Shown here in pieces: positions 21,550 through 34,318 of a stretch of DNA of 61,842 nucleotides. The notes under the pieces were generated by a model. It saw only the letters and a list, made by a program, of their open reading frames with translations, was not told where the DNA came from and ran no database searches. The position numbers were made by a program, and so were the translations under genes. Every line of letters starts with the position of its first letter. The first letter of the stretch is position 1. The DNA comes from Clostridia bacterium (lineage in GTDB: Bacteria > Bacillota > Clostridia > Christensenellales > CAG-138). Location of the stretch: contig JAFXSG010000047.1 in assembly GCA_017525875.1 (NCBI GenBank), positions 1 through 61,842 on the forward strand, in the 5' to 3' direction.

Positions 21550-24500
21550 ATGAGCTATTTTACCGATAATCCCTATTCCGGGAGCGGGCTGCTGCCCGAC
21601 TCCGCAGCGGGAGTTCAGGACTATATCGACAGCGGCACGATCAGTATCGTTTCCGCCGTTTACCGCCACGATCCTGACAGGGTCGAGGTGCGTATCGATG
21701 CGCGCCGTTTCCTGCTCGAGCGCGAGATCGAGTTCATCACGGACGAGGTCAAAAAGAAGGTCTTCCCCGTGGACGCGACCTGCGTTTTCCGTTTTGCCGA
21801 AGCGATCGGCGACTGCGACGCCAACGTCGAGCTCTCCGCCGAGGCGCTGCGGGAGCTCTGGTGCGAATACTCGCCTCAGCTCGAGCCCATCCTGCGCCGC
21901 TGCCGCATGGAGCGCCACGGCAACGAGTTCGTAGTGTTCGCTCCGCCGCGCTATATCCTCGCCCTGACACAGACCACGGCGGGCGATTTCCGCGCCCACC
22001 TCGACAGCGTCTATTCATGGGTCGCGGCGATCCGCATCGTTGCGGACGACAGCCTTGCGGACGGCATGGACGGCGCGGAGCCCATAGTCAAGCGCGACTG
22101 GGGCGTGGGCCGCAGCGTGGGCATCTCGCGCAAGACCCAGCGCAAAAATATCCGCCATCTTTCGCCCGCGGACATCATCTACGGCAAGGAGATACTGAAG
22201 CCGGAGCTCGTGCGCATGGCGGACCTGACCGACCGCTCCGGGCATATCTCCGTGCGCGGCGAGCTGCTTTCCATGGAGAGCTTCGTTTCGAAAAAGCGCC
22301 GCACGAACGTGCTCACGCTGACCGTGACGGACAAGACGAACACGGTCATCGTGAAGTTGTTCCCGGACGAGCTGACCGCCTCGCGAACGATGAACCTTTT
22401 GAAAAAAGCACAGGAGGAACCCTGCGAGCTGCTGATCCGCGGCAATTTCCGCTTTGACAGTTACCAGCGCGATTACTGCCTTTTTGCGGACGACATCAAC
22501 CGCTACCCCAAGGAGATCCGCGCCGATACTGCGGCGGACAAGCGCGTAGAGCTCCACCTGCACACCCAGATGAGCGCGATGGACGCGACGACGAAGCTCG
22601 CTGAGGTCGTGGAGCGCGCGGCGAAATGGGGGCATAAGGCGATCGCTGTGACCGATCACGGCGTGGTCCATTCCTTCCCGGAGGCGCGCAAGGCCGCAAA
22701 GGAGTTCGGCATCAAGGTCATCTTCGGCTGTGAGGGTTATCTCGTTGCGGACAGCGTTTCCCGCCCTGTCGGCGACGCGGATTCCTACTGCGCGATCGCG
22801 CTGACGAGCTACGGCACTGGCGTGCACTCGAGGATATTCGATATCGCCGCGATCCGCTTCACGAAGGACGGGGACAAGGCCGCCTTCCGCACCGCCGTCA
22901 ATCCCGGTGTGCCTCAGCCCATAAAGACCGCGGCGCTGACCGGCTACGGGGACGAGGAGATCGACGGGGCGCCGATCCTTTCGGAAGCGGTGAGATCGCT
23001 CTCCGATTTTGTCGGGTCGAGCCTGATCGTCGTTCACGACCGTGAAACGCTCGCTATCCTTCATCTGCTCCTCGGTTCGTCCTGCCCGCTCGGAAAAAAC
23101 TGCGTGCTCTCCTCGATGCTGATGCAGTACCTCCGCCGCGACCTTAAGGCGGAAGCGAGGCAGATGCCTGAGCTTTCCGCGCCGGACGCAGCCCGCTGGA
23201 CGGCCGTCAGGATGCGTGAACTGCTGGATCTCAACGAGAAGGCCGGCGTACACACGCTGCCCGTCGTTGACGCGCTGGAGCACGAGCCCGAAAAGCGCAG
23301 GAGCAACCATATCATCATCCTCGCGGCGAGCGAGCCCGGCCTCAAGAACCTGTATAAGCTCGTTTCGTATTCAAACCTCGATCATTTTTACAAGACTCCG
23401 CGCATCCCGAGGAGCCTGCTGAACATCCACAGGGAGGGACTGATCCTCGGCTCCGCATGCGAAGCGGGCGAGCTGTTCCGCGCGATGGTGAACGGCGCGG
23501 ACGAAGATGAGCTGCTGCAGATCGCTTCCTACTACGATTATCTCGAGATCCAGCCCATCGGCAACAACGCGTTCCTCATCCGCGAGGGCATCGCGAAGGA
23601 CGAGGAGGCGCTCCGCGATTACAACCGCCGCATCGTTGAACTCGGCGACAAGCTCGGTAAGCCGGTCGTCGCGACGGGCGACGTGCATTTCCTCGAACCC
23701 GAGGACGCTGTCTTCCGCGCGATCCTCATGAGCGCGTCCAACTATAAGGACGCCGCGATCCAGCCGCCGCTGTATTTCAGGACGACCGACGATATGCTGG
23801 AGGAATTCAGCTATCTCGGTGAAGAGAAGGCCTTTGAGGTGGTCGTTGAAAACACGAACAAGATCGCGGACATGTGCCCGCAGCTGCGCCCGTTCCTCGA
23901 CGACAAGCAGACCTACGCACCGGAACTGCCCGGCGCGAAAGAGGAGCTGACCCGGCTTTCGCTCACGAAGGCGCACGAACTCTACGGCGAAGTGCTGCCC
24001 GACGTGGTGCAGAAGAGGCTGGACAAGGAGTTTGCCTCCATCATCGGCAACGGCTACTCCTCGCTCTATATGGTGGCGCAGAAGCTCGTTTCCAAATCTC
24101 TGAGCGACGGGTACCTCGTCGGCTCCCGAGGTTCGGTCGGTTCCAGCTTCGTGGCGTATCTTTCCGGCATCACGGAGGTCAACGCCCTCCCCGCGCACTA
24201 CCGCTGCCCGAACTGCAAATACTCCGAATTCCCCGCCGTGGGCGACAAGTCGCGCTGCGGCATCGACCTGCCCGAAAAGAACTGCCCCGTCTGCGGCACG
24301 CCTCTGCGGCGCGACGGCTACGAGATCCCGTTCGAGACCTTCCTCGGCTTCAAGGGCGACAAGACCCCCGATATCGACCTCAACTTCTCCGGCGAATACC
24401 AGCCCGTGGCGCACAAGTTCACGGAGGTCATGTTCGGCGAGGGGCACGCCTTCCGCGCCGGCACGATCTCCGGCCTGCAGGAAAAGACAGCCTACGGCTA

Positions 24501-25788
24501 CGTTATGCACTACTGCGAGGAGAACGGGCTGAACCCCTCCGAGGCTGAGAAGACCCGCCTTGCCAACGGCTGCGTCGGCGTGCGCAAGACCACCGGCCAG
24601 CACCCGGGCGGCATCGTCATCGTTCCCGAGGACCTTGAGATCTATGATTTTTGCCCCGTGCAGCACCCGGCGGAGAAGGTGGACGCGGACAGCATCACCA
24701 CACACTTCGATTTCCACGCGCTCGACGACAAGCTCGTCAAGCTCGACATTCTCGGCCACGACGACCCGACCACGATCCGCATGCTGCAGGACATCACGGG
24801 CATAGACCCGAAGAGCATCTCCCTTGCGGACGAGGAGACGATGAAGATCTTCCGCACGGACGAGCCGCTCGGCGTTTCCCTCAAGGAGCTCGGCTGCGAC
24901 ATCGGCAGCCTCGGCATTTCCGAATTCGGCACCGGCTTCGTCCGCGGGATGCTGATGAACACACGCCCCACCACGATGGAGGAGCTCGTGCGCATCGCCG
25001 GCCTTTCCCACGGCACGGACGTGTGGCTCGGCAACGCCGAGGAGCTGATCAAGGCGGGCACGGCTACGCTGATGCAGGTCATCTGCACGCGTGACGATAT
25101 CATGAACTACCTGATCGCGCACGGCGGCGAGCCCTCGCTCTCGTTCAAAACGATGGAGAGCGTCCGCAAAGGCAGGGGCCTCAAGCCGGAGATGGAGGAG
25201 GCCATGCGCAGGAACAACGTTCCCGAATGGTACATCGACAGCTGTAAGAAGATCACGTACATGTTCCCCCGCGCACACGCCGCGGCGTACGTCATGATGA
25301 GCTTCCGCGTGGCCTACTTCAAGGTGCATCACCCGCTCGCGTTCTATTCGGTGTATTTCACCGTCCGCGCGGACGCGTTCGATATCGAGCAGTGCATGGG
25401 CGGCGCCGAAAAGGTCCTTTCGAACCTTCGCGAACTCAAAAACCTTTCGAACCCCGACCCGAAGCAGAAGGAGCAGATCATCGTGCTGGAGCTCGTTTAT
25501 GAGATGAACCTGCGCGGCATCGAGCTGCTGCCCGTGGATATCTACAAATCAAAGGCCACCCGCTTCACGATTGAGGGCGACAAGATCCGCCCGCCGTTCA
25601 ACGCGATCGCCGGCCTCGGCGACAACGCCGCGAGGCAGATCGAAGAGGGCGCGAAGGGAGGCCCGTTCCTCTCCCGCGAGGACTTTGTCAAGCGCACGCG
25701 CGCGAACTCCGCGATCATGGATAAGCTGGACGCCCTCGGGTGCCTTGCGGGGCTTTCCGACAGCGACCAGGTGGCCATGGAGTTTTGA
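21550..25788 (+). CDS. polC: DNA polymerase III alpha subunit, PolC type, with degenerate exonuclease domain
   Basis: PolC (1412 residues) is the replicative polymerase of low-GC Gram-positives. Order: N-terminal domain, OB fold (about 225-290, SGHISVRGELLSMES), PHP first half (from about 333, VELHLHTQMSAMDA), DnaQ-like exonuclease insert (about 407-581), PHP second half (ending VVATGDVHF), polymerase core with a Cys4 zinc site (CPNCKYSEF...CPVCGTPL) and catalytic aspartates in TPDIDLNFSGEYQP and LDILGHDDPT. In the exonuclease, Exo I Asp-x-Glu is replaced by Ala417-Leu-Thr419, the Exo II Asp by Leu501, and the late His/Asp are missing, while flanking fold residues (NPGVP, LTGYGDEEI, VVH) remain. 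The polymerase should be active; its own proofreading probably is not. ATG follows GGGAG. Confidence 0.96.
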   Translation: MSYFTDNPYSGSGLLPDSAAGVQDYIDSGTISIVSAVYRHDPDRVEVRIDARRFLLEREIEFITDEVKKKVFPVDATCVFRFAEAIGDCDANVELSAEALRELWCEYSPQLEPILRRCRMERHGNEFVVFAPPRYILALTQTTAGDFRAHLDSVYSWVAAIRIVADDSLADGMDGAEPIVKRDWGVGRSVGISRKTQRKNIRHLSPADIIYGKEILKPELVRMADLTDRSGHISVRGELLSMESFVSKKRRTNVLTLTVTDKTNTVIVKLFPDELTASRTMNLLKKAQEEPCELLIRGNFRFDSYQRDYCLFADDINRYPKEIRADTAADKRVELHLHTQMSAMDATTKLAEVVERAAKWGHKAIAVTDHGVVHSFPEARKAAKEFGIKVIFGCEGYLVADSVSRPVGDADSYCAIALTSYGTGVHSRIFDIAAIRFTKDGDKAAFRTAVNPGVPQPIKTAALTGYGDEEIDGAPILSEAVRSLSDFVGSSLIVVHDRETLAILHLLLGSSCPLGKNCVLSSMLMQYLRRDLKAEARQMPELSAPDAARWTAVRMRELLDLNEKAGVHTLPVVDALEHEPEKRRSNHIIILAASEPGLKNLYKLVSYSNLDHFYKTPRIPRSLLNIHREGLILGSACEAGELFRAMVNGADEDELLQIASYYDYLEIQPIGNNAFLIREGIAKDEEALRDYNRRIVELGDKLGKPVVATGDVHFLEPEDAVFRAILMSASNYKDAAIQPPLYFRTTDDMLEEFSYLGEEKAFEVVVENTNKIADMCPQLRPFLDDKQTYAPELPGAKEELTRLSLTKAHELYGEVLPDVVQKRLDKEFASIIGNGYSSLYMVAQKLVSKSLSDGYLVGSRGSVGSSFVAYLSGITEVNALPAHYRCPNCKYSEFPAVGDKSRCGIDLPEKNCPVCGTPLRRDGYEIPFETFLGFKGDKTPDIDLNFSGEYQPVAHKFTEVMFGEGHAFRAGTISGLQEKTAYGYVMHYCEENGLNPSEAEKTRLANGCVGVRKTTGQHPGGIVIVPEDLEIYDFCPVQHPAEKVDADSITTHFDFHALDDKLVKLDILGHDDPTTIRMLQDITGIDPKSISLADEETMKIFRTDEPLGVSLKELGCDIGSLGISEFGTGFVRGMLMNTRPTTMEELVRIAGLSHGTDVWLGNAEELIKAGTATLMQVICTRDDIMNYLIAHGGEPSLSFKTMESVRKGRGLKPEMEEAMRRNNVPEWYIDSCKKITYMFPRAHAAAYVMMSFRVAYFKVHHPLAFYSVYFTVRADAFDIEQCMGGAEKVLSNLRELKNLSNPDPKQKEQIIVLELVYEMNLRGIELLPVDIYKSKATRFTIEGDKIRPPFNAIAGLGDNAARQIEEGAKGGPFLSREDFVKRTRANSAIMDKLDALGCLAGLSDSDQVAMEF

Positions 25789-31555: not shown

Positions 31556-34318
31556 TCAGTCCATCGCCATCACGGCGCGCATGATCAGGATCGCGTCGGA
31601 AGCGGTGATAACGCCGTCGCCGTCCATATCGCCGTTGATCGCGCCCTGGCCGCTCACGATCGTGATGCTCATTGCGTGGCGCATGGCGAGCAGCGCGTCC
31701 GCCGCGGTGACTTCACCGTCGAGGTCGATATCGCCGAGCAGGGTCACGGAGGGTCCGTTCTCCGTATATAGCGCGGTGACGGTCATATCCTCGGTGACGG
31801 CGGAGAAGTCCTTATCCCAGCCGGTGAAGGTGTAGCCCTCGTGCACAGGCGCGTCCGGTGCGGTCGCCGCCTGCCCGTTCTCGACGGTGACGGTGGAAAT
31901 GGTCTCATTTGTGAGGCCGTCCACGAAGGTGACGGTGTGAGTGACGGGCTGCGGGTCGTCCCCGCCGACGTATTTATAGAGATACAGATCCTTGCTGTCA
32001 CCCGGGGTGTACGGGCGGAAATCCGCTTGATAAATGCTGATGGTCCTGCTCGAGCCCTCAAGAGTGGTCGTGAGATAGAAGGTGCCGGCGGTCTCGTTCT
32101 TCATCGTGACGGTAAAGCCCTCGGTCGCCTCCTCGCCGACGGAGAAGCCGCCGGTGGAGTTCGTGCTGATCATGCAGTACACAGCCGCCGCTTCGTTGTA
32201 GAGCGAATAGCTGCCGTCCCCGCGGGTTGTCATTACCCAAACGACGGACTCGTCCGGGTCGACGACCGTATTGCCGGAGAGCGTCACGGCAGCAGCGATC
32301 ATGTGGCCCTTGTTGCACACGCTGCTCATCGCGCCGGTGTAATTGCCGTTCACGCCGTAGAGCACGTATTTGCCGTCCGTAACCTCATCGAGCGAGGTCA
32401 CGAGCACGTAATCGCCCTCGCCGGGATCCGGGGTCGCGGTCGGTTCCGGAGTGACGGTCGGGTCCGGAGTCTCACCGCCGCGCTTATAGAGGAACAGATC
32501 GTGCCAGTTCGAGGAATCGTAGGGACGGAAGTCGTTCTGGTAGATGCTGATCATCCTGCTCGAACCCGAGAGCGTTGTGGTCATGTAGTAGCTGCCTGCG
32601 GTGGGCGCCGCGGAGATCGTGTATCCGTAGTCCGCCTCATCGCCGAGGCTGAAGCCGCTCGTGCTGTTATCCGAGATCATGCAGTATTTGCCTGCCGCTT
32701 CGTTGTAGAGCGTGTAGACGCCGTTCGTTTCCTCCATGTGCCAAACGACGGAGCTGTCGGGCGAGACGATCGTGTTATCCGTCAAGGTCACTGCGGTCAG
32801 GCCCATGCGGCCGCCCGAAACGGTGTTGTTCATGGCACCCTTGTAGTTGCCGTTCACGCCGTAAAGCACGTAGTCGCCGGAAGTGACGTCGTCAAGCGAG
32901 GTCACGAGCGTGAACACCTCGCCATCGGGGGCTTCGGTGGGATCCGGGGTCGCCGTCGCTTCGGGGGTGGCGGTCGGGTCCGGCACAGCGGTCACGACGG
33001 GCTCCTCTCCCGGGACGTAGGTCGCGGTGGCGTAGGCGTAGGCGCCGTTTGCCGCAGTCCACGTGCCGCTCGTCCAGCCGGACTGGCCGGAGACGTAGTA
33101 CATTTTGAAGCCCGACGGCGCCTGAGCGTCCGAACTGCCCGCGATCATTATCTGAGTGCTGCCTTCCGCCTCGAAGGAGGGAGCCTGTCCCTCGAAATAC
33201 ATCGCGATGAGAGCGGGCACGTTGTGGAAGGCACGGCGCGCAAAGGTCTTACTGCCCGAGCCGATCGTTACGGAGGCAAGAGAAGTATCGTTATAGAAGG
33301 CGTATGAACCGATCTTCGTGACGCATGCGGGGATGGTGACGGAGGTCAGTCCGGAATTGTTTGCAAACGCCGCGCAGCCGATCGCGCCGACGGTGTAGCC
33401 GCCGAGTGTCTCGGGGACGGTCACGGCCGAAGCGCTGCCGCTGTATGAAGCGATGACGGCGCTGCCGTTTTCGACGTAGTAGCAGTAGTCTCCGTCGGTC
33501 AGGAGCGTGTAGTCAAAGCCGTTGTCGCTCGAACCGTAGACGAGCCTTGCGAACTCCGGATAGTCGATAAACACGTTCCTGTTGCCCTGCACGGAATAAA
33601 CGTATTCGTTCCTGGCGATCTCGAGGCTGTCGACGGGATCGAGCAGATTCCACTCGAGCAGGGTCTTGAAGGTGTCGTCCGCAACGGGAGCTGTGAGGTC
33701 CTCGCCCCAGCGGACGGCAACGTAGAAATAGATCCTCGCAAGATCGCCCTTGAACCCGTCCCTCGGTTCGAACAGATCGCCTGCGGGAAGGACGTAGTTC
33801 TGCGTGCCCGCGTTATCGTAAACGAGCTCCCTCAAAGCGGTGTCGATCCAGCCCGCGTCGTAGTTGCTGCGCGGGGAGTTGACGGTGCTCGATTCCGGAC
33901 GGATATGATGCAGGTCCGCGCCGGCGTTGGAATCGGTAAAAGTGCCCTTGGATTTGGGCCAGACGTGTTCTCGGTTATAGGTCGTTCCGCTGTCCCACGC
34001 GCCGTTTACGGACGCGCCGGAGTAGCAGAGCAGGATATTGCCGGGAACGGCCGGGTCGGCGTCCGAACCGGTGAACATATAGCGGATCTCGCTGTAGGTC
34101 GTGACGTGCGAATGGGTGTTCGTCATCAGGTTGGCAAGATCGGTCTTGAGCGTGTCCCCGCTCTCCGCGAGCAGTGCGGAAACGCTGTAGCCGTTGTCCG
34201 TGTAGTAGCTGTCATCAGCCCGGACGGGACCCTCGGCAGTGTTTGCCCTTGCCGCCGGCAGGACCGAAACGAGCATGATGATCGCGGCGAAAAGCGCCGC
34301 AAGCCTCTTTGTGATCAT
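31556..34318 (-). CDS. Secreted endonuclease I-family protein with LRR, duplicated module, InlB-like repeat and dockerin
   Basis: The 920-residue protein has a signal peptide (cleavage near ARA, residue 25) and then an endonuclease I (EndA-type) domain with NREHVWPKS (115-123) and DLHHIRPESS (135-144), the metal and catalytic His region. It continues with a BspA-like leucine-rich segment (about 290-370), Pro-Thr linkers (PDPTATPEATATPDPT), two copies of a roughly 140-residue module (about 443-588 and 605-745), an InlB-type repeat (GYTFTGWDKDF) and a C-terminal type I dockerin with DIDLDGEVTAADALLAM and DMDGDGVITASDAILIM calcium loops. It probably digests extracellular nucleic acid while docked to a cohesin. 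Confidence 0.9.
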   Translation of the reverse strand: MITKRLAALFAAIIMLVSVLPAARANTAEGPVRADDSYYTDNGYSVSALLAESGDTLKTDLANLMTNTHSHVTTYSEIRYMFTGSDADPAVPGNILLCYSGASVNGAWDSGTTYNREHVWPKSKGTFTDSNAGADLHHIRPESSTVNSPRSNYDAGWIDTALRELVYDNAGTQNYVLPAGDLFEPRDGFKGDLARIYFYVAVRWGEDLTAPVADDTFKTLLEWNLLDPVDSLEIARNEYVYSVQGNRNVFIDYPEFARLVYGSSDNGFDYTLLTDGDYCYYVENGSAVIASYSGSASAVTVPETLGGYTVGAIGCAAFANNSGLTSVTIPACVTKIGSYAFYNDTSLASVTIGSGSKTFARRAFHNVPALIAMYFEGQAPSFEAEGSTQIMIAGSSDAQAPSGFKMYYVSGQSGWTSGTWTAANGAYAYATATYVPGEEPVVTAVPDPTATPEATATPDPTEAPDGEVFTLVTSLDDVTSGDYVLYGVNGNYKGAMNNTVSGGRMGLTAVTLTDNTIVSPDSSVVWHMEETNGVYTLYNEAAGKYCMISDNSTSGFSLGDEADYGYTISAAPTAGSYYMTTTLSGSSRMISIYQNDFRPYDSSNWHDLFLYKRGGETPDPTVTPEPTATPDPGEGDYVLVTSLDEVTDGKYVLYGVNGNYTGAMSSVCNKGHMIAAAVTLSGNTVVDPDESVVWVMTTRGDGSYSLYNEAAAVYCMISTNSTGGFSVGEEATEGFTVTMKNETAGTFYLTTTLEGSSRTISIYQADFRPYTPGDSKDLYLYKYVGGDDPQPVTHTVTFVDGLTNETISTVTVENGQAATAPDAPVHEGYTFTGWDKDFSAVTEDMTVTALYTENGPSVTLLGDIDLDGEVTAADALLAMRHAMSITIVSGQGAINGDMDGDGVITASDAILIMRAVMAMD

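Follow-up and report, generated by a model that had tools for sequence, protein, structure and literature searches.

The PolC-type DNA polymerase III alpha subunit encoded in the window, i.e. the whole stretch of 61,842 nucleotides analysed here, carries a DnaQ-like (DEDDh) exonuclease domain in which none of the five catalytic residues is left. DnaQ-type proofreading is generally taken as a standing feature of PolC. In the order to which this genome belongs, Christensenellales in GTDB, the DnaQ site was lost at least three times, and one of these losses is ancient and takes in an entire clade of 13 genera of uncultured gut bacteria. Our favoured reading, which we hold with moderate confidence, is that the catalytic site was lost while the domain was kept as a scaffold or contact surface, and that editing would have reverted to the PHP sites of PolC and of its partner DnaE.

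The polC gene and its exonuclease insert

The polC gene is preceded by a gcpE (ispG) gene and an ADP-ribosylglycohydrolase gene, and the G+C content of the window is 58.6%. One PolC and one DnaE were detected in the host genome (2.49 Mb, 53 contigs). The product has the domains of a PolC (an OB fold, a PHP domain split by the DnaQ-like insert, a polymerase core and a helix-hairpin-helix motif) and scores above the cut-offs of both NCBIfam PolC equivalogs (PRK00448, 1463.9 bits with a cut-off of 873; TIGR01405, 1324.7 with a cut-off of 1043.45). Pfam matches were obtained for PHP, DNA_pol3_alpha, the finger and HHH_6, while the OB-fold region gave a weak match to tRNA_anti-codon (residues 234-275, E 0.25). 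The features are as follows.

21550..25788, + strand: polC, PolC-type DNA polymerase III alpha subunit (open reading frame of 1412 aa)
22162..22527, + strand: OB-fold region, about residues 205-326, by alignment to the PolC chains 3f2b and 9qpc
22543..22749, + strand: PHP domain part 1 with ligands H336, H338, D345, H370 and E395 (Pfam PHP, residues 334-661)
22765..23283, + strand: vestigial DnaQ-like (DEDDh) exonuclease domain, residues 406-578, by profile-profile match to intact PolC exonuclease domains
22798..22806, + strand: former Exo I D-x-E, with A417 at the Asp, then L418, a one-residue gap at the Glu, and T419
23047..23052, + strand: former Exo II Asp, T500 (23047-23049) in the profile alignment and L501 in an earlier register
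23173..23190, + strand: former Exo III H-x4-D, with L542 at the His, A547 at the Asp and D546 adjoining
23308..23784, + strand: PHP domain part 2 with ligands H587, C637, D711 and H713, by ligand alignment
23917..25419, + strand: polymerase core (Pfam DNA_pol3_alpha and finger)
24370-24387, + strand: catalytic DIDLNF, residues 941-946, polymerase aspartates present
25516..25758, + strand: helix-hairpin-helix motif (Pfam HHH_6, residues 1323-1403)

The register of the exonuclease motifs was set by sequence and profile alignment. Both in the alignment with relatives and in the profile alignment the insert retains 0/5 of the DEDDh catalytic residues, and it thus lacks the D-x-E, D and H-x4-D pattern of an active enzyme. 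The initial annotation described the Exo I Asp-Val-Glu as replaced by Ala417-Leu-Thr419; the alignment agrees, with a gap at the Glu position ahead of Thr419. Its statement that the Exo II Asp is replaced also stands, although Leu501 is off by one and T500 takes that place in the profile alignment, and the Exo III His and Asp are indeed replaced by non-acidic residues. D546 lies one place ahead of the catalytic Exo III position, at a site that is variable in active relatives (among others D, N, H, S, Y, F and E), and D497 and E499 near Exo II are both out of register. Pfam RNase_T does not match the window PolC even at E up to 1, and the weak NCBIfam DEDD-exonuclease matches over residues about 411-497 (best E 6.7e-7) remain far under cut-off. 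Judged from its sequence, the exonuclease domain of this PolC is close to certain to be catalytically dead. The polymerase motif DIDLNF, in contrast, is intact, as described before.

Elsewhere in the window (31556-34318, - strand) a protein of 920 aa shows an unusual combination of Endonuclease I, leucine-rich repeat, Flg_new repeat and dockerin.

Spread of the loss and fate of the domain

Aligning related PolCs and mapping the loss on a tree had been proposed as a check, and both place the window protein in a large group. PolC was found in 94 of the 103 genomes of its family. One of these (G095) is a fragment without the exonuclease region and was left out; three genomes of family f1 without PolC (G020, G026, G029), possibly incomplete assemblies, were not used. 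Among the 93 readable proteins 44 are dead, 47 have all five residues, one has Asp changed to Tyr (G015) and one is cut before Exo I (G124). The 44 dead proteins comprise all readable members of 13 genera, and 11 of them belong to the genus of the window. Few catalytic residues survive in the dead copies (Exo I Asp in 5/43, Exo II Asp in 3/44), with G068 keeping two of the five by alignment. Nine loci (L034-L042) from species already counted were left out of the reference counts; eight of them (L034-L040, L042) are dead-PolC records from metagenome assemblies, whose titles mention the goat abomasum, the sheep omasum and RUG isolates (the prefix standing for rumen), and one reads Christensenellaceae bacterium.

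In a FastTree phylogeny calculated without the exonuclease columns the 44 dead PolCs form one clade with a support of 0.985. An IQ-TREE run with 58 rows, in which G015 was scored as active, requires three changes between the dead and the active state, each of them enforced by branches with good support. They concern the family clade (SH-aLRT 97), G208 of family f31, and family f12, in which G047 and G140 (genus g37) are dead and G161 is active. The DnaE tree does not group the dead rows of the family, but a forced grouping is not rejected (p-AU 0.36); G039, whose DnaE is partial, was dropped from the DnaE trees. A further 53 PolCs of the order include two dead ones, one with Glu at the Exo II Asp (G231), three unreadable or cut and 47 active ones.

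Some single cases differ. The Tyr at the Exo I Asp of G015 (L028, genus g6) is found in a single genome with all other exonuclease motifs intact, and is possibly a fresh loss. Two proteins of family f23, L257 (G231) and L248 (G276), have the unusual Exo I motifs D-F-E-M-T-G and D-M-E-M-T-G and the Exo II motifs HDVHVE and HDVHID. Three PolC rows of family f21 which seemed to lack the Exo III His were rejected as candidates, as the His is visible in the segment and its absence was an artefact of fixed-column placement.

The initial annotation also held that the dead domain was retained, and this is borne out in the whole clade. A profile built from 42 dead domains alone can be aligned over its whole length to active PolC exonuclease domains (prob. 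99.9) and, among DnaQ-fold structures, matches the PolC exonuclease chain PDB 2p1j with E 2.4e-17. When searched singly, 27 of these 42 domains match RNase_T at E up to 0.1; that of the window does not. At 54 columns which are hydrophobic in active domains the dead ones are on average 0.80 hydrophobic, compared to 0.22 at 86 polar columns, so that the hydrophobic core is kept; by profile the DnaQ fold is retained. At four catalytic columns, on the other hand, the intact residue is down to 0.02-0.12 in the dead rows, and the Exo I Glu column is a gap in all but two of them. Apart from one cut row, the exonuclease region of the dead proteins measures 215-234 aa, against a median of 236 in active ones, and it is deleted in 0/44 dead PolCs; with an insert of near-normal length they, like the window PolC among them, are not PolCs of the type lacking the Exo insertion.

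Substitution rates were compared in pairs, the dead ones mostly from g1 and g25 and the intact ones mostly from genus g2, excluding pairs with short overlap or with a polymerase dS outside 0.15-1.5. Relative to the polymerase, the exonuclease domain has a median dN of 5.91 among the 73 dead pairs and of 2.65 among the 267 intact ones, i.e. the dead domain evolves about twice as fast. Alternative region borders give ratios of 4.6 and 1.6, in the same direction. The dN/dS of the domain is 0.29 in dead and 0.16 in intact pairs and thus under 1 in both, a rough estimate because synonymous sites are partly saturated. No shift is seen in the N-terminal domain (8.09 dead, 8.17 intact), and the relative dN of the OB region is lower in the dead clade (3.28 vs 4.89). 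These data point to a domain which is freed from catalysis and still constrained to fold. In the proposed history the ancestor of the 13-genus branch would have lost the catalytic residues; the domain, not deleted and still folding, would have come under relaxed purifying selection, and it probably acts as a scaffold inside the PHP domain or makes contact with DNA or the replisome.

Candidate editors in the dead clade

Clostridia mostly have three candidate editors, the PHP domain in PolC, the PHP domain in DnaE1 and DnaQ in PolC (PMC12926913), and by its sequences the clade of the window has lost the third. All nine PHP ligands of the pattern HHDHEH[C/H]DH are present in the window PolC, in agreement with the initial annotation. 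They are homologous to the nine of Geobacillus PolC (PMC3666897); position 8 is Asp here and Asn in Geobacillus. The HHDHEHCDH set is complete in 43/43 readable dead PolCs of the family, and with the dead proteins G047, G140 and G208 added, PHP is intact wherever readable in all 47. It is also complete in 48/48 readable family PolCs with an active exonuclease, and the nine-ligand set of DnaE in 40/40 genomes read, with or without PolC.

We propose that PolC stays a working and strongly constrained replicase, and that replication errors would most likely be edited at two PHP exonuclease sites of the zinc type, one in PolC and one in DnaE, with MutS and MutL as a backup. According to PMC5636811 the ancestral proofreader may have been PHP, and in Firmicutes a DEDD exonuclease inserted into it took its place; editing by PHP would then be a reversal of that step. 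The PHP ligands are however no proof of activity, because the PHP domain of Geobacillus PolC has 8/9 ligands and no exonuclease was seen (PMC3666897, PMC5636811). Nor is there a sign of a new PHP duty, since the ligands are equally conserved beside an active exonuclease and PHP is not slower in the dead clade; a different evolution of PHP in this clade was rejected, as its dN relative to the polymerase (1.59 dead, 1.66 intact) does not differ.

Five PolCs of family f4 (L183, L277, L279, L282, L286) have Ser or Lys at the H370-equivalent PHP ligand and an intact DnaQ site, the opposite choice to that of the window's clade. No PolC with both sites broken was found; this is not significant, because only five proteins, from two genera, have a changed PHP.

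The first alternative is that PolC of the dead clade works without any proofreading, fidelity resting on base selection and mismatch repair. The complete loss of the DEDDh residues in the window PolC agrees with this, as does the inactivity of a PolC PHP domain tested elsewhere (PMC3666897, PMC5636811). Mismatch repair is also kept: among the 26 good genomes of the clade (at least 90% complete, at most 5% contaminated) MutS1 is present in 26 and MutL in 25, by which a loss of mismatch repair is rejected. Yet the dead state persisted through 13 genera, and the PHP ligands are undecayed in every readable dead copy. Moreover, in the PolC tree without exonuclease columns the mean root-to-tip distance, which reflects PolC divergence and not mutation rate, is 0.610 for the 44 dead proteins and 0.723 for the 49 other family members; this lack of acceleration speaks against a long-lasting strong mutator. 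We regard this alternative as unlikely.

Editing could also take place in trans, by the PHP site of DnaE alone or by a separate enzyme. The complete DnaE sites would allow the former, and cross-editing between two replicases is known, because the DnaQ domain of Bacillus subtilis PolC serves DnaE3 in trans (PMC12926913). For the latter a candidate editor is a short DEDDh exonuclease with a D-V-E-T-P-N motif, whose motifs are whole by eye at 7 of 25 dead-clade loci (L313, L314, L375, L376, L382, L383, L385) in four dead genera (g25, g26, g22, g9). A stand-alone DEDDh replacement shared by the clade was nevertheless rejected: the 25 matches opened, from 22 dead-clade genomes, have at least six architectures. 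Besides the short type these are by eye Cas2-like fusions (L315, L316, L378), an L-E-W-N-Q type (L371, L372, L379-L381), an L-E-M type (L373, L374, L384), DEDDh-like proteins with a membrane anchor that look degenerate at least in part (L309, L318, L370) and longer fusions (L190, L194, L317, L377). The PF00929 search of the 103 family genomes gave no gene common to the dead clade among the matches listed. Seven of the 26 good genomes have no RNase_T match, three have one only inside PolC, and G002 has a single weak match. DEDDy (PF01612) matches, considered as a further replacement, are mostly weak and patchy. The separate exonuclease which the initial annotation had offered as a substitute is therefore improbable as a general answer, because seven good genomes lack RNase_T and the proteins opened are of many kinds, and editing in trans as a whole appears quite unlikely.

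The only stand-alone match in the genome of the window (L309) is membrane-anchored and by eye without the Exo III H-x4-D. Together with L318 and L370 of the same genus it is a long protein with an N-terminal, at least partly degenerate DEDDh-like domain and a C-terminal membrane segment, and by eye this looks like a second decaying exonuclease in the genus. The Cas2-like N-terminus joined to DEDDh in L310, L315, L316 and L378 resembles, again by eye, Cas2-DEDDh chains among the PDB matches.

A demotion of PolC, with DnaE doing most of the synthesis and PolC editing being dispensable, seems very improbable. A PolC match (E <= 1e-60) is found in 80 of the 219 sampled genomes of the order and is missing in 139 (among the good ones in 115 of 179), so that DnaE can probably replicate alone in relatives. 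The polymerase core, however, is under equal constraint in both clades, with a dN/dS of 0.064 in the dead and 0.065 in the intact one, and DIDLNF is present in 42/42 readable copies of the dead clade. An artefact of sequencing, assembly or alignment can practically be dismissed, because relatives carry the same loss (10 further genomes of the same genus and 33 of 12 other genera, together 44 separate genomes with the window's), no stop lies within any listed PolC match, and the register is confirmed by profile-profile alignment.

Of the three consequences offered by the initial annotation, i.e. takeover by PHP, a separate exonuclease or a raised mutation rate, the takeover by the PHP sites is the best remaining and, as judged from sequence, a likely one.

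Mini-PolC proteins and comparison with known systems

About 100 of the 219 genomes of the order, and 0 of the 80 with a PolC match, have a protein which we call mini-PolC. It consists of the PolC N-terminal domain, OB and the DEDDh exonuclease, lacks polymerase and PHP, and mostly has 500-550 aa. A 520-aa protein from a PolC-less genome was used as the query, and in 100 genomes the match ranked higher than the first PolC row; 99 of their open frames have 500-714 aa and one (G213) 266, and about 14 match over the OB and exonuclease part only. Other PolC-less genomes gave weaker matches, which are not part of this count. The loci opened in these other genomes of the order are L320-L349, L299-L301, L303, L305, L306 and L319. 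In 34/34 mini-PolCs read (the 30 best-scoring of the 100 and four others) the DEDDh residues are intact. In a profile comparison the first about 340 residues match the PolC N-terminal/OB region with prob. 99.8 and E 2.3e-28; a DnaE alignment used as a control for the same region is not blank (prob. 93.9, E 1.6e-7). In 22 of the 34 a strict Qxx[LIM]F motif, of the QxxLF clamp type, is found no more than 60 residues ahead of Exo I, where 0.5 are expected by shuffling. By text pattern, NusA was seen beside mini-PolC at 11/30 loci and beside full PolC at 0/26 loci of the order, the latter with short flanks. Nine mini-PolC genomes and two with neither protein found lie on one side of a branch with SH-aLRT 100 in the unrooted DnaE tree.

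It is possible, at close to an even chance, that the halves of PolC were split both ways in this order: in three lineages DnaQ died and editing went back to PHP, and in a large sister lineage polymerase and PHP were lost and mini-PolC would act as a clamp-tethered stand-alone proofreader for DnaE. Two genomes without PolC, G051 (f16) and G054 (f19), are 100% and 97% complete and have weak mini-PolC matches (8.6e-26 and 2.6e-17); the DEDDh protein L302 of G051 has another make-up than mini-PolC. In these two the DnaE PHP site may be the only editor.

According to a 2026 survey it is PHP, and not DnaQ, that becomes inactivated in Pol III alpha subunits (PMC12926913). The order of the window contrasts with this, as DnaQ was lost at least three times and PHP is whole. 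Our search of the accessible literature, with passages of PMC12926913 and PMC3919608, gave neither a PolC whose DnaQ domain is dead yet retained nor a mini-PolC. As a natural experiment the clade bears on three questions: whether the PHP site can edit for PolC by itself, which role a dead exonuclease domain has in a replicase, and how polymerase and editor are re-partitioned in replisomes. With mini-PolC the division of labour is testable in one order. Because PolC is a drug target in Gram-positive bacteria (PMC12592400), variation in its editing is also of practical interest.

The nearest known system is the clostridial PolC with an active DnaQ insert, which has the same domain order, PHP ligands and polymerase motifs and a DnaE partner with a whole PHP, the clostridial DnaE being of class DnaE1 (PMC12926913, PMC3919608). 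It keeps the DEDDh residues, whereas the window's clade lost them and the domain stays. PolCs without the Exo insertion, 6% of the total and almost only from Clostridia and Negativicutes (PMC3919608), likewise have a clostridial host and no usable DnaQ site, but there the insert is gone, while in the window's clade it persists as a dead DnaQ-like domain. Mycobacterial DnaE1 is edited by its own PHP exonuclease (PMC5636811) and shares the complete nine-ligand PHP; it is however of the DnaE type and without a DnaQ insert, and its PHP activity is shown, whereas that of the window PolC is a prediction. Pol I orthologs and actinobacterial PolA2, whose domain holds a clamp motif, also retain a dead 3'-5' exonuclease (PMC12926913), but they are not the replicase, as the window PolC is. 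In E. coli Pol III the PHP domain is catalytically dead and structurally kept (PMC3666897), so that this replicase too maintains an inactive nuclease domain for its structure. There PHP is dead and DnaQ edits; in the clade of the window it would be the reverse.
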